This document shows positions 33,467-40,960 of a DNA stretch of 64,000 nt, in pieces. Origin of the DNA: Gordonia sihwensis NBRC 108236 (GTDB taxonomy: Bacteria > Actinomycetota > Actinomycetes > Mycobacteriales > Mycobacteriaceae); contig NZ_BANU01000005.1 of the NCBI RefSeq assembly GCF_000333035.1, positions 62,001-126,000 on the forward strand. Direction: 5' to 3'. Position 1 is the first letter of the stretch. Each line of letters begins with the position of its first letter. A model generated the notes under the pieces. It made no database searches. It was not told the origin of the DNA and was given only the letters and a program-made list of their open reading frames with translations. A program made the translations under genes and the position numbers.

Positions 33467-36168
<2,702 letters not shown>

Positions 36169-36250: not shown

Positions 36251-36305
36251 AGTTCAGCCCCCCGATGGCGGGCCTCGCCCGCGACTGCCCCGTTAGCCTC
36301 GAGGG

Positions 36306-37337
36306 ATGAAACTCGGTCTGCAACTCGGATACTGGGGCGCCCAGCCGCCCACGAACCACCGCGAACTCGTTCAGGCCGCCGAACGGGCGGGCTTCGACTC
36401 CGTCTATACGGCGGAGGCCTGGGGTTCGGACGCCTACACTCCCCTCGCCTGGTACGGGAGCGACACCGAACGCCTCAGACTCGGCACGTCCGTGCTTCAG
36501 CTGTCGGCCCGCACGCCCACCGCGTGTGCGATGGCGGCCCTGACTCTCGACCACCTCTCGGGCGGCAGGCACATCGTCGGTCTCGGCGTCTCCGGCCCGC
36601 AGGTGGTCGAGGGCTGGTACGGCCAGCGATTCGCGAAGCCGCTGGCACGCACCAGGGAGTACGTCGACATCATGCGCCAGGTGTGGGCGCGGGAGGCACC
36701 GGTGACCAGTCCCGGACCGCATTATCCGCTCCCGCTGTCCGACGAGTCGGCGACCGGCCTCGGAAAACCCCTGAAGTCGATCGTGCATCCGCTGCGCCGG
36801 GACATCCCGGTCCACCTCGGCGCGGAGGGCCCCAAGAACATCGCCCTGGCCGCCGAGATCGCCGACGGCTGGCTTCCGCTGTTCTTCACACCCCGGATGG
36901 CCGACCAGTACAACGCCTGGCTCGACGAGGGGTTCGCCCGACCCGGCGCCCGCCACACCCGCGAGACGTTCGAGATCGCCGCGGTGGCGCAGATCGTCCT
37001 CACCGACGACGTCGCCGCCTACTCCGCGATCAAGCCCTTCCTCGCGCTGTACATGGGCGGTATGGGCAGCGAGGACACCAACTTCCATGCGGAGGTCTAC
37101 CGCCGAATGGGCTACGCCGAGGTAGTCGACGAGGTCACCGCGCTGTTCCGGTCCGGCCGCAAGGAGGAGGCCGCGGCGATCATCCCGGACGCGGTCGTGG
37201 ACGATTCGGCGATCGTCGGCGACGAGGCCCACGTACGCGAACAGATGGCTGTCTGGGAGCGCGCCGGGGTCACCACGATGCTCGTCTCCCCCGGCACCGT
37301 GGCCGAGGTGGAACGCCTCGCCGCATTGCTCGACTGA
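36306..37337 (+). CDS. LLM-class F420-dependent oxidoreductase
   Basis: 343 residues of the luciferase-like TIM barrel with the mycobacterial F420 pattern (TIGR03559-like): MKLGLQLGYWGAQPPTNHRE, VYTAEAWGSDAYTPLAW, LGTSVLQLSARTPTACAMAA, VGLGVSGPQVVEGWYGQRF and IPVHLGAEGPKNIALAAEIA. It uses reduced or oxidised F420 on an unknown substrate. ATG 36306 follows GAGGG. Confidence 0.87.
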   Translation: MKLGLQLGYWGAQPPTNHRELVQAAERAGFDSVYTAEAWGSDAYTPLAWYGSDTERLRLGTSVLQLSARTPTACAMAALTLDHLSGGRHIVGLGVSGPQVVEGWYGQRFAKPLARTREYVDIMRQVWAREAPVTSPGPHYPLPLSDESATGLGKPLKSIVHPLRRDIPVHLGAEGPKNIALAAEIADGWLPLFFTPRMADQYNAWLDEGFARPGARHTRETFEIAAVAQIVLTDDVAAYSAIKPFLALYMGGMGSEDTNFHAEVYRRMGYAEVVDEVTALFRSGRKEEAAAIIPDAVVDDSAIVGDEAHVREQMAVWERAGVTTMLVSPGTVAEVERLAALLD

Positions 37338-37349
37338 GCCGTTGACCGC

Positions 37350-37423
37350 AACCTTGATTAGGTGAACGAAAGGTTAACGCGACCCGAATAACGCTTGACT
37401 TCACCTTGCGCGGAGGTTACAAA
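37350..37423 (+). promoter_or_regulatory. Promoter of the small 47-codon gene
   Basis: TTGACT (37395-37400) and TACAAA (37418-37423) are spaced by 17 bp, a good SigA promoter. The transcript should begin near 37430, giving a leader of about 29 nt. Upstream, AACCTT (37350-37355) and AAGGTT (37370-37375) form an inverted repeat that could hold a regulator. Confidence 0.6.
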
Positions 37424-37458
37424 GGTATGGACTGCAAAGAACGAAGGAGGTCTCCACC

Positions 37459-37602
37459 ATGCGAAACAGCACAGGTTCGACCTTTGCGTCCACCTTTCAC
37501 GCGTACATTCGCCGGATCGCCGCGCGGATGAACCAGAGCGCCAACGAGCGCCTGAGCCTGCAACTCGGAAACTCTCCGGTCGCGGTGCTCGGCGTCGGCT
37601 GA
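37459..37602 (+). CDS. Small protein of 47 residues, free-standing unit
   Basis: ATG 37459 follows a strong SD (AAGGAGG, 37444-37450) at 8 nt and the frame ends at TGA 37600-37602. The product begins MRNSTGSTFASTFHAYIRR, is basic and amphipathic in its first half and ends in SPVAVLGVG. A 17-bp-spaced promoter lies before it and a 23-bp hairpin right after, so it is its own transcription unit. I do not recognise the family. The transcript could also act as a small RNA or carry a leader peptide, although no regulated gene follows. Confidence 0.6.
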   Translation: MRNSTGSTFASTFHAYIRRIAARMNQSANERLSLQLGNSPVAVLGVG

Positions 37603-37617
37603 CGGCCCGAACAACAC

Positions 37618-37670
37618 GAAACAGCAGTGGTCCCCGACGGAACGAATCCGTCGGGGACCACTGCTGTTTC
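37618..37670 (+). terminator. Perfect 23-bp hairpin terminator
   Basis: The arms 37618-37640 and 37648-37670 pair over 23 bp without mismatch around a 7-nt loop (AACGAAT). The stem starts with GAAACAGC on the left and ends GCTGTTTC on the right, so it can end transcription from both sides. It lies between the small gene and the convergent Ddn-like gene. Confidence 0.9.
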
Positions 37671-37729
37671 GGAGGGTTGTGAACAAGTCGTCGTTCAGGA
37701 GCGGCCGGCGGACGGCCCGGCGACGACGG

Positions 37730-38200
37730 TCAGCTCACGCGGTGCAGGCGGAACAGCGGAATCACCCGGGTCGTGCGCTTCTCGTACAACGTGAAGTTCG
37801 GCCACACGCCGAGCAGCCGGTCCCACGCGGCGGCGCGCTCGACGCCGGAGAGCTCGGTCGCTGACATCCGCGTCGCCGCCCCGTGAACCTCGACGTCGAA
37901 CGAATCGGCGGCCCGGATGTTGTAGACCCACGCAGGCGTCCGCGGTCCCCCGAAGTACGAGCCGGCGACGATCCAGTCCTCGCCGTCGGGCGCCGCGAGC
38001 ACCGGCGTCGAGTGCAGCACTCCGCTCTTGCGGCCGCGCACCGTGATGGTGATCCCGGGCAGTCCGGCGATCCGCAGCAGATCCACTCGGCCGCGCGAGA
38101 CCTTCTGAAGCACGGTGTCCGCCTTCACGATCCACGGGAGGTACCGCGGCAGCCAGGAGATCGACCCGATCAGGATCGCCAGCCGCGTGAGGATCCCCAC
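37730..38200 (-). CDS. Deazaflavin (F420)-dependent nitroreductase-family protein
   Basis: 156 residues of the Ddn/PF04075 family: GLPGITITVRGRKSGVLHST, PVLAAPDGEDWIVAGSYFGG and TPAWVYNIRAADSFDVEVHG, then LFRLHRV at the end. Members reduce quinones or nitro compounds with F420H2, often at the membrane; the N-terminal hydrophobic segment (ILTRLAILIGSISWLPRYL) fits that. It lies 4 bp after htpG on the same strand. Confidence 0.87.
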   Translation of the reverse strand: MGILTRLAILIGSISWLPRYLPWIVKADTVLQKVSRGRVDLLRIAGLPGITITVRGRKSGVLHSTPVLAAPDGEDWIVAGSYFGGPRTPAWVYNIRAADSFDVEVHGAATRMSATELSGVERAAAWDRLLGVWPNFTLYEKRTTRVIPLFRLHRVS

Positions 38201-38204
38201 CGGG

Positions 38205-40145
38205 TCAGCCGAGGTCTCTGGTGAGCGTGTCGGCCAACAGCCTCGCGACCTCCGCCGGATCGTCGAGATCTCCGCCCTCGGCGAGCACCGCCGTCGCGTA
38301 CAGCAGCTTGGCGGTCGGTTCGAGAGCCGTGTGATCGTCGCCGTCCGCGTCGAACTTGCTCCGCAGGGCCGTGACGAGGGCGTTGTCCGGATTCAGCTCC
38401 AGGATCCGCTTCGACTTGGGCACCGGCTGGCCCGACGCCCGATACAGCTTCTCCAACTGCGGGGTCATCGAGAAAGTGTCCCCGACCAGGCACGCCGCCG
38501 ACTCGGTCAGCCGCGAACTCAGCCGCGCCTCCGAGACGTCGTCCGCGAGCGTCTCGGCGAGCCAGGACAGCAGCGGTGCGAACTCCTCGTCGCGCTTCGA
38601 CTTCTCCTCGCCGTCGGCGTCCGCGTCGGCGTCATCCAGGTCGACGACGCCCTTGGCCACCGACACCAGTTGCTTGCCTTCGAAGTCGAGACCGGAGGAG
38701 ACCCAGACCTCGTCCACCGGATCGGACAGCAGCAGCACCTCGATGCCCTTCGCGCGGAAGGCCTCCAGGTGCGGCGACCGCTCGATCTGCGTCCGCGACT
38801 CGCCGGTCATGTAGTAGATCACGTCCTGATCGGGCTTGCACCGCGAGAGGTAGTCGACCAGTGTGGTCGGCTCGGTCTCACTGTGGGTGGACCCGAACAC
38901 CGACGCCTTGAGGATCGCCTTCGCGTTGTCGTGGTCGTTGATCAGACCTTCCTTGAAGACGCGGCCGAAATTGCTCCAGAAGGTCTGGTAGTCCTCCGGA
39001 CGACGGTCCTGCAGTTCCTGGACCGACGAGATGACCTTCTTCACCAGACGTCGCCGGATGGCGCGGATCTGACGGTCCTGCTGCAGAATCTCGCGCGAGA
39101 CGTTCAGCGACAGATCCGCGGCGTCGACCACGCCCTGGACGAACCGCAGATACTCGGGCATCAACTCGGCGGCGTCGTCCATGATGAACACGCGCTTGAC
39201 ATACAGGTGGATGCCGCTGGTGCGCTCGCGCATGAACAGATCGAACGGCGCCTGCGACGGGATGAAGAGCAGGGCCTGGTACTCGAACGTGCCCTCGGCG
39301 TGCAGCGAGATGGTCTCGAGGGGCTCGTCCCAGGCGTGCGAGATGTGACGGTAGAACTCGGCGTACTCCTCCTCGGACACCTCGCCGGGCGACTTCGCCC
39401 ACAGCGCCTTCTGCGAGTTCAGGGTCTCGTCGACCTCTTCGGTCGTGGGCTCGCCGCCTTCCTCGGCGGCAGGCACCTGCTTGGTCACCCGCATGCGGAT
39501 CGGCCAGGAGATGAAGTCGGAGTACTTCTTGACCAGAGCGCGCAGCACGTTCTGGTCGGCGTAGTCGTGGACCGCGTTCTCCTCGTCGACGGCCTTGAGG
39601 GTGAGGGTGATCGACGTGCCCTGCGGAGCGTCGGGGGCCTCGTCGAGGGTGTAGGTCCCGTCGCCGGTCGACTCCCAGCGCGTTCCGACGGTCTCGCCGG
39701 CCTTGCGCGTGACCAGTTCGACGCGATCGGCGACCATGAACACCGAGTAGAAGCCGATGCCGAACTGGCCGATCAGTTCCCCGGCGTCCTTGGCGTCGGT
39801 CTCGGCGAGCTTCCGGCGCAGTTCATCGGTGCCCGACTTCGCCACGGTTCCGATCAGGTCGACGACCTCCTCGCGCGACATGCCGATGCCGTTGTCGGAC
39901 ACGGTCAGCGTCCGAGCGGAGGCGTCCGGGGTCAGCCGGATGTGCAGATCGGAGATGTCGACGTCGAGGTCCTTGTCGCGCAAGCCTTCCAAGCGGAGCT
40001 TGTCGACCGCGTCCGACGCGTTGGAGATCAGTTCGCGAAGAAAGCTGTCCTTGTTCGAATAGATCGAATGAACCATCAGATCCAGCAGTTGGCGTGCCTG
40101 GGCTTGGAACTCGTACACCTGCGAGGTCACCGCGTAACTCCTCAT
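38205..40145 (-). CDS. htpG: Molecular chaperone HtpG (Hsp90)
   Basis: 646 residues. The N-terminal ATPase has ELISNASDAVDKLR (Bergerat motif I), DNGIGMSREEVVDLIGTVAKSG without a break and GQFGIGFYSVFMVADRV. The middle domain contains SREILQQDRQIRAI; the C-terminal dimer domain ends in LLADTLTRDLG. An acidic insert (DLDDADADADGEEKSKRDEE) is in the usual linker region. ATG 40145 begins the family N-terminus (YEFQAQARQLLDLMVHSIYS); the frame is open to 40322 but that part is low-complexity and overlaps the divergent gene. Confidence 0.95.
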   Translation of the reverse strand: MRSYAVTSQVYEFQAQARQLLDLMVHSIYSNKDSFLRELISNASDAVDKLRLEGLRDKDLDVDISDLHIRLTPDASARTLTVSDNGIGMSREEVVDLIGTVAKSGTDELRRKLAETDAKDAGELIGQFGIGFYSVFMVADRVELVTRKAGETVGTRWESTGDGTYTLDEAPDAPQGTSITLTLKAVDEENAVHDYADQNVLRALVKKYSDFISWPIRMRVTKQVPAAEEGGEPTTEEVDETLNSQKALWAKSPGEVSEEEYAEFYRHISHAWDEPLETISLHAEGTFEYQALLFIPSQAPFDLFMRERTSGIHLYVKRVFIMDDAAELMPEYLRFVQGVVDAADLSLNVSREILQQDRQIRAIRRRLVKKVISSVQELQDRRPEDYQTFWSNFGRVFKEGLINDHDNAKAILKASVFGSTHSETEPTTLVDYLSRCKPDQDVIYYMTGESRTQIERSPHLEAFRAKGIEVLLLSDPVDEVWVSSGLDFEGKQLVSVAKGVVDLDDADADADGEEKSKRDEEFAPLLSWLAETLADDVSEARLSSRLTESAACLVGDTFSMTPQLEKLYRASGQPVPKSKRILELNPDNALVTALRSKFDADGDDHTALEPTAKLLYATAVLAEGGDLDDPAEVARLLADTLTRDLG

Positions 40146-40204
40146 CGTTGAGCTGATTTCGCGCCGCTGAGTGTACCGGGGCGGCTGCGCGTACTGTGAA
40201 GGGC

Positions 40205-40960
40205 GTGTCTGGGGTTCCACGTGCTCTGTTCGTCCACGCTCATCCCGACGACGAGTCGTTGTGGACCGGCGGCACCATGGCACGACACGCCCGGCGCGGC
40301 GGCGAGGTCTCGCTGGTGACATGCACGTGGGTGCCCGGGACCGCGCGCCACGGCGAGTTGCTCGACGCCGCCCGCGAACTGGGACTGTCTCGCGAGCCCA
40401 TCATGCTCGGCTACGCCGACAGTTTCGTCCCCGAGTCCGCGCCCGGCGCGACTCCGTTCGTCTCAGCGCCCTTCGACGAGCAGGTCGCGGCTCTGGTGGC
40501 ACACATCCGGGAGATCAAGCCGCACATCCTCGTCACCTATGACGCCTACGGCATGTACGGCCACCCCGATCACATCCACGCCAACCGGCTCACGTGCGCC
40601 GCGGCCGACGCCGCGGCGATCGGCGCCTACCGCCCCGACGCGGGCGAGCCCTGGCAGGTCCGTTCGCTCTACTTCATCACCATTCCCGAGACCACCGTGA
40701 CCACGTTGAAACCGCACCTCACCGAGGACTCGCATCTTCCCGTGTCCGGGACGCCCAGCGACCGGATCGACCTCGCCGTCGACGTCGACGACTGCCTCGG
40801 CAGCAAGATCCGCGCGATCGTCTCGCACAAGACGGAGATCGCGCGCAGCGCGTCGATGAAGGCCTTCGGAGCACTCCCCCGCGATCCGCAGCGACTGTTT
40901 CTGCAGTGGGAGTCGTATCTGCGGCGCGATCTCGTTCCGGGCGGAGCCGAGCTCGCCTGA
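40205..40960 (+). CDS. PIG-L family deacetylase (MshB/Mca-like)
   Basis: 251 residues. Zinc motifs are AHPDDE (12-17) and GHPDHIHANR in the middle, as in N-acetylglucosaminyl-inositol deacetylase MshB and mycothiol amidase Mca. At about 250 residues it is shorter than MshB (about 300), so I do not assign either name. GTG 40205 lies 7 nt after TACTGT (40192-40197), consistent with a leaderless mRNA; GTG 40196 is the longer alternative. It is divergent from htpG with about 60 bp between. Confidence 0.82.
   Translation: MSGVPRALFVHAHPDDESLWTGGTMARHARRGGEVSLVTCTWVPGTARHGELLDAARELGLSREPIMLGYADSFVPESAPGATPFVSAPFDEQVAALVAHIREIKPHILVTYDAYGMYGHPDHIHANRLTCAAADAAAIGAYRPDAGEPWQVRSLYFITIPETTVTTLKPHLTEDSHLPVSGTPSDRIDLAVDVDDCLGSKIRAIVSHKTEIARSASMKAFGALPRDPQRLFLQWESYLRRDLVPGGAELA

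Follow-up and report, generated by a model that had tools for sequence, protein, structure and literature searches.

A conserved small-protein gene of Gordonia with a candidate phosphate box, and its M-box-associated relatives in Mycobacteriales

We analysed a stretch of 64,000 nucleotides from Gordonia sihwensis NBRC 108236 (contig NZ_BANU01000005.1, positions 62,001 to 126,000), below called the window. A small unit at 37360-37671 lies between the 3' end of a luciferase-like oxidoreductase gene and a converging quinone reductase gene (Table 1). The original prediction described a free-standing unit with a promoter of 17-bp spacing, a strong Shine-Dalgarno box and a 47-codon frame encoding a small basic protein. 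All these elements were found in this layout, the distance between the -35 and -10 boxes being 17 nt, and the encoded protein has a net charge of +4. The leader deduced from the position of the candidate -10 box would be about 29 nt long. A strict promoter scan of the region 36300-38300 yielded no sites, since TACAAA lacks the final T demanded by the scan. Thus the promoter assignment relies on the conservation of TTGAC and GGTTAC (37415-37420), both present in all 16 relatives in the alignment of upstream regions.

Table 1. Features of the small unit and of the adjacent genes (window coordinates)
Feature	Position	Strand	Comment
Peroxidase gene	33967-36168	+	further upstream
Luciferase-like oxidoreductase gene	36306-37337	+	PF00296; upstream neighbour
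Candidate PHO-type box	37360-37378	-	two direct-repeat units 11 nt apart; kept in 16/16 relatives
-35 box TTGACT	37395-37400	+	16 nt after the box; TTGAC in 16/16 relatives
Candidate -10 box TACAAA	37418-37423	+	overlaps conserved GGTTAC; -10 role inferred
Shine-Dalgarno box AAGGAGG	37444-37450	+	read from the sequence
Small-protein gene, 47 codons	37459-37602	+	pN<pS in 120/120 pairs
Perfect hairpin, 25 bp	37617-37671	.	arms 37617-37641 and 37647-37671, 100% complementary; 5-nt loop
F420H2-dependent quinone reductase gene	37730-38200	-	PF04075; converging downstream neighbour
Hsp90 gene	38205-40322	-	further downstream

The small protein was found in 16 of the 59 Gordonia genomes by protein search. 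A profile search recovered the same 16 genomes and a marginal second match in genome G048 (E 0.0099). The named close relatives are Gordonia proteins. The same oxidoreductase gene, 82-100% identical, lies upstream in 14 of the 16 fetched loci, the window's own included. One of the other two loci (L027) is on a contig too short to tell, and the other (L028, genome G019) has a different neighbourhood; the PHO-type box is kept in the latter although the surrounding genes are others. Residues S11, R31, P40, V43, L44 and G45 are common to the 16 proteins. Nonsynonymous divergence is below synonymous divergence in every pair (means 0.31 and 0.52), with the pairs being non-independent and the constraint moderate. 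The second codon position is the most conserved one (0.745, 0.831 and 0.685 for positions 1, 2 and 3). Judged by this conservation, the frame is a real protein-coding gene. The conserved short frame with synonymous-change bias proposed as a check by the original prediction was thus found, and the outcome named as contrary to it, loss of the frame with retention of the RNA structure, was not seen: both the frame and the hairpin occur in all 16 relatives. Among the papers listed by literature searches, none dealt with the 47-codon frame.

The hairpin behind the stop codon is indeed perfectly paired, as predicted, but it is longer than the 23 bp given originally. It probably serves as the 3' end of both the small unit and the converging gene. 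The terminator scan calls it on the minus strand only, and no U-run follows it on the plus strand; of the features of an intrinsic terminator, the GC-rich hairpin is present and the U-run is reported on the minus strand only. The RNA 37430-37675 folds with z = -6.99, and none of 200 shuffled sequences was equally stable. Long perfect or near-perfect hairpins follow the stop codon in all 16 relatives (z from -1.9 to -6.2), their sequences being different. An Rfam search of the locus gave nothing at the gathering score; below it were two matches to miRNA families, plant-miRNA-like hairpins with scores far under the threshold.

The upstream box reads AGGTGAACGAAAGGTTAAC on the plus strand and GTTAACC..GTTCACC on the minus strand. 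The alignment of 16 upstream regions has the pattern AGGTGAACGGAAAGTTAAC, followed 16 nt further on by TTGAC and then by GGTTAC, in all 16 sequences. The units are arranged head to tail and correspond to the reverse complement of GTTCACC-N4-GTTCACC, with 11-13 of 14 positions matching the two cores in all 16 loci of the small gene. This conserved box suggests that the promoter of the small gene is regulated. Regulation had been predicted previously from an inverted repeat, AACCTT (37350-37355) and AAGGTT (37370-37375). This inverted repeat is not conserved in relatives and was rejected as an operator; it is the direct repeat that carries the prediction of regulation. The pattern of the box plus TTGAC has 15 matches in 14 of the 59 genomes, 14 of them upstream of the small gene and one elsewhere (G017:C5), and the reversed control pattern has none. 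The bare repeat occurs twice in the window's genome; the second occurrence was set aside, as it lies within what by eye reads as a coding sequence resembling glnA.

A matrix built from the 16 boxes was used to scan the zones from -350 to -100 of pstS (30 loci fetched of the 59 genomes having this gene) and of amt (29 of 30 loci fetched). Of the pstS zones, 27 of 30 reached a score of at least 8, as did 1% of 3000 Markov shuffles, whereas no amt zone (0 of 29) and no coding window (0 of 206) did. A test independent of the small gene asked for a pair of GTTCACC cores at a distance of 11 nt in which no fewer than 11 of the 14 positions match; it was passed by 26 of 30 pstS zones, 0 of 29 amt zones, 1.7% of 480 shuffles, and all 16 regions upstream of the small gene. 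However, among the 16 genomes possessing the small gene (a set including ten additionally fetched pstS loci) only seven pstS zones score at least 8 and two at least 12, and the core test is passed by 7 of 16; the pstS zone of the window's genome scores 10.6. The top-scoring pstS boxes belong to Gordonia genomes without the small gene. Since the rate in the gene-bearing genomes exceeds that of shuffled sequences but is well below that of the rest of the genus, control of the small gene by a phosphate (PHO) box is likely, not proven. The core is the same as that given for the PHO box of S. coelicolor, GTTCACC, in the consulted part of PMC4415409; the S. coelicolor PHO box and the mycobacterial RegX3 box, as described in the consulted parts of PMC4415409 and PMC7884335, likewise consist of two 11-nt units with this core. 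In contrast to those, the Gordonia box, a candidate binding site, is reversed relative to its gene, whereas the best pstS matches read GTTCACC along the coding strand.

No Pfam or NCBIfam family exceeds its curated cut-off for the window protein, and 32 family members compared with both collections yielded nothing beyond single matches with E from 0.017 to 0.078. The earlier statement that no family could be recognised therefore holds for these collections, but not for profile searches, which revealed a large unnamed family. At E<=0.01 the profile of 16 sequences picks up 43 of 401 genomes, among them 14 of Gordonia. The matches in other genera were faint at first, the best having E 3e-6 in one genome; most of those inspected are short frames with xLTPQERxxLxxxxxPxAV. 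Comparison of the Gordonia group with the distant group by hhalign gave a probability of 97.7 and E 2e-12 over 39 columns. The core alignment of the family is ungapped throughout, the distant proteins are mostly 23-37% identical to the window protein, and intermediate sequences exist, such as P0043 ending in SPVAVLGAGA. With a joint profile, 209 proteins have E<=1; among the 120 of these that were listed are proteins of Gordonia, Mycolicibacterium (including M. smegmatis), Tsukamurella, Nocardia, and Mycobacteroides. With a profile of 32 sequences, 90 of the 401 genomes, from 13 of the 31 genera, give a match at E<=1e-3; the weakest of these matches, in long frames, are probably due to chance. 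With the same profile, 144 of the 297 genomes of genus g29 have a match at E<=0.01. The family core is [LM][ST]xxxRxxLxxxxxPxAVL, and the proteins considered here are mostly 43-71 amino acids long. The window protein is short and basic and fits this core; sequence comparison places it, as a divergent member, in an uncharacterised family of small proteins of Mycobacteriales.

Many genes of this family are preceded by M-box riboswitches (RF00380). On the same strand upstream of the small gene, an M-box was found in 7 of 14 distant loci and in 30 of 60 further loci (L239 was left unscanned), that is, in 37 of 74 scanned loci outside the window-type Gordonia branch; the other half have none. Of 25 named loci, 24 were scanned and 20 contain an M-box, which lies downstream in one case (L160) and upstream in the other 19; these loci share species with the unnamed ones. 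The copy of M. smegmatis mc2 155 (P0031) is among those linked to an M-box. No M-box was found at any of the 16 window-type Gordonia loci. The single M-box of the window's genome (L244, G000:C31:37327-37504) precedes a uORF2-like frame with a strong Shine-Dalgarno box and a gene of a P-type cation ATPase. Copies from another branch of the family in five Gordonia genomes (L171, L188, L195, L196, L203) have neither an M-box nor the PHO-type box (best score 4.1). A PHO-like box without an M-box was observed upstream of second copies in genus g22, which by likeness to named proteins appears to be Nocardia (L224, score 18.1; the closely similar L225, L227 and L228, score 15.2 each). Three of these four genomes also hold a copy with an M-box (L181, L057, L058).

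In M. tuberculosis an M-box controls the uORF2 peptide Rv1805A, which has the homologues Rv1535A and Rv0115A; in the consulted part of the same report the peptide is called mycobacteria-specific and M-boxes are also described upstream of MgtE-type genes (PMC12810186). Distant relatives of the window protein match this M-box and uORF2 layout, the family frame being placed after uORF2 in the loci that were read. In locus L260 the order is an M-box (recognised by its core string only), a uORF2-like frame, the small protein, an MgtE_N/CBS protein, an Nramp protein, and a second small protein. The uORF2 peptides are placed between the M-box and the first gene and have a conserved N-terminus. The window protein, unlike Rv1805A, Rv1535A and Rv0115A, is not a uORF2 peptide, its N-terminus having been compared by eye only, and its locus has no M-box, whereas other branches of the family are under M-box control. 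The protein Rv1535, described in the consulted part of PMC3207917 as hypothetical with neither homology nor function identified, may belong to the family. Frames resembling uORF2, with the Shine-Dalgarno sequence GGAGGTGA followed by M..GDSPY or a similar start, were noticed after the M-boxes of L050, L054, L057, L163, L242, and L246. Since visual inspection showed such frames in loci of Nocardia, Tsukamurella and Gordonia type, the distribution of uORF2 may be wider than mycobacteria.

The protein has no predicted membrane segment: the highest mean hydrophobicity over 19 residues is 0.20 in the window protein and 0.20-0.35 in five members, and on this ground a membrane peptide was rejected. 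The protein is perhaps helical, as a single structure model consists of one helix (residues 5-38) with low confidence (pLDDT 66). The amphipathicity of the helix was not above that of shuffled sequences in the five members tested. Given this and the low confidence of the model, nothing indicates the partner of the protein directly.

The PhoP/RegX3 class comprises the phosphate-starvation regulators of actinobacteria. We infer that a regulator of this OmpR/PhoB type would bind the direct repeat that lies shortly before the -35 box and, under phosphate shortage, turn on the unit, which would be a single gene for a 47-amino-acid basic non-membrane protein. Translation would start from the good Shine-Dalgarno box and the transcript would end at the long hairpin. 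In other genera the family protein would be made when Mg2+ is short, and the control of the gene would have shifted from an ancestral magnesium signal to phosphate in Gordonia. The product may be a small cytosolic effector that binds a metal-phosphate transporter or the ribosome, neither being favoured, and is needed when Mg2+ or phosphate is scarce. We estimate the probability of this reading, a PHO-controlled one-gene unit encoding a divergent member of the family and an effector of Mg2+ and phosphate, at about 0.6. The effector role as such is a tentative suggestion, with the odds somewhat against it. The 31-amino-acid protein MgtS of E. coli has as targets MgtA and PitA, a carrier of Mg2+-phosphate, according to the consulted part of PMC10710835, and thus offers a parallel of one small protein that links Mg2+ with phosphate; the likeness would be one of role only, as the window protein, unlike MgtS-like membrane proteins, has no detectable transmembrane segment.

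Other explanations differ in the part of this reading that they replace. The unit is short, has its own promoter and end, and yields a very stable transcript, as might be expected of a small regulatory or dual-function RNA in which the frame is secondary. However, none of the 16 relatives has lost the frame, its substitution pattern is that of a coding region, homology of the protein extends to genera with different DNA and different 5' control, and the Rfam matches are negligible, which makes this explanation very improbable and disfavours a gene for RNA only. Equally improbable is the idea that the likeness between the Gordonia and M-box-linked proteins arose by convergence or chance, so that the link to Mg2+ would be uninformative for the window gene: the short length of the proteins, the weak early matches and the low identity of most of the distant sequences agree with it, but the hhalign score, the gapless core and the intermediates argue against it.

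The signal and the target are less firmly assigned. Direct repeats of such spacing serve several OmpR-type regulators, and the box could belong to another of them, such as GlnR, MtrA or the acid-stress PhoP, and respond to another signal. The weak pstS boxes of most gene-bearing genomes and the reversed orientation are consistent with that, whereas the core and the spacing agree both with the S. coelicolor core, as far as PMC4415409 was consulted, and with pstS zones across the genus, so we consider it unlikely. The lack of high-scoring amt zones disfavours a GlnR box, the one of these three candidates that it covers. That the protein acts on the ribosome or on RNA and not on a transporter is slightly less improbable, though still on the unlikely side. 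The ribosome is a meeting point of Mg2+ and phosphate, the protein is basic, soluble and probably helical, and its PDB profile matches are ribosomal proteins, although these are not significant (E 0.08 and 0.5); against this idea, the only operon examined closely, that of L260, contains genes of transporter type.

The PHO-controlled effector fits a broader possibility, to which we would give less than even odds, that one family acts where the supplies of Mg2+ and phosphate meet across Mycobacteriales with a shared target, for example metal-phosphate transport or the ribosome. In many genera a Mg2+ riboswitch would govern it, whereas in the Gordonia branch and in Nocardia-type second copies a phosphate box would do so. 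If so, one gene would have exchanged an RNA sensor for a two-component promoter, a clear example of rewired regulation; we would also regard as new an effector common to Mg2+ stress and phosphate stress outside enterobacteria. The family adds a common unnamed protein to the mycobacterial Mg2+-stress loci, studied so far for the riboswitch and the uORF, and the Gordonia gene offers a simple relative free of riboswitch control for probing the role of the family.

Two minor observations concern individual loci. In a branch of genus g29 (L059, L062, L256, L257) the proteins end in YVAHMPTAVLGAC with a C-terminal cysteine, and an M-box was not found, L256 and L257 having been checked by the core string only. 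At L185 and L199, two M-boxes that diverge from each other lie next to one family member.
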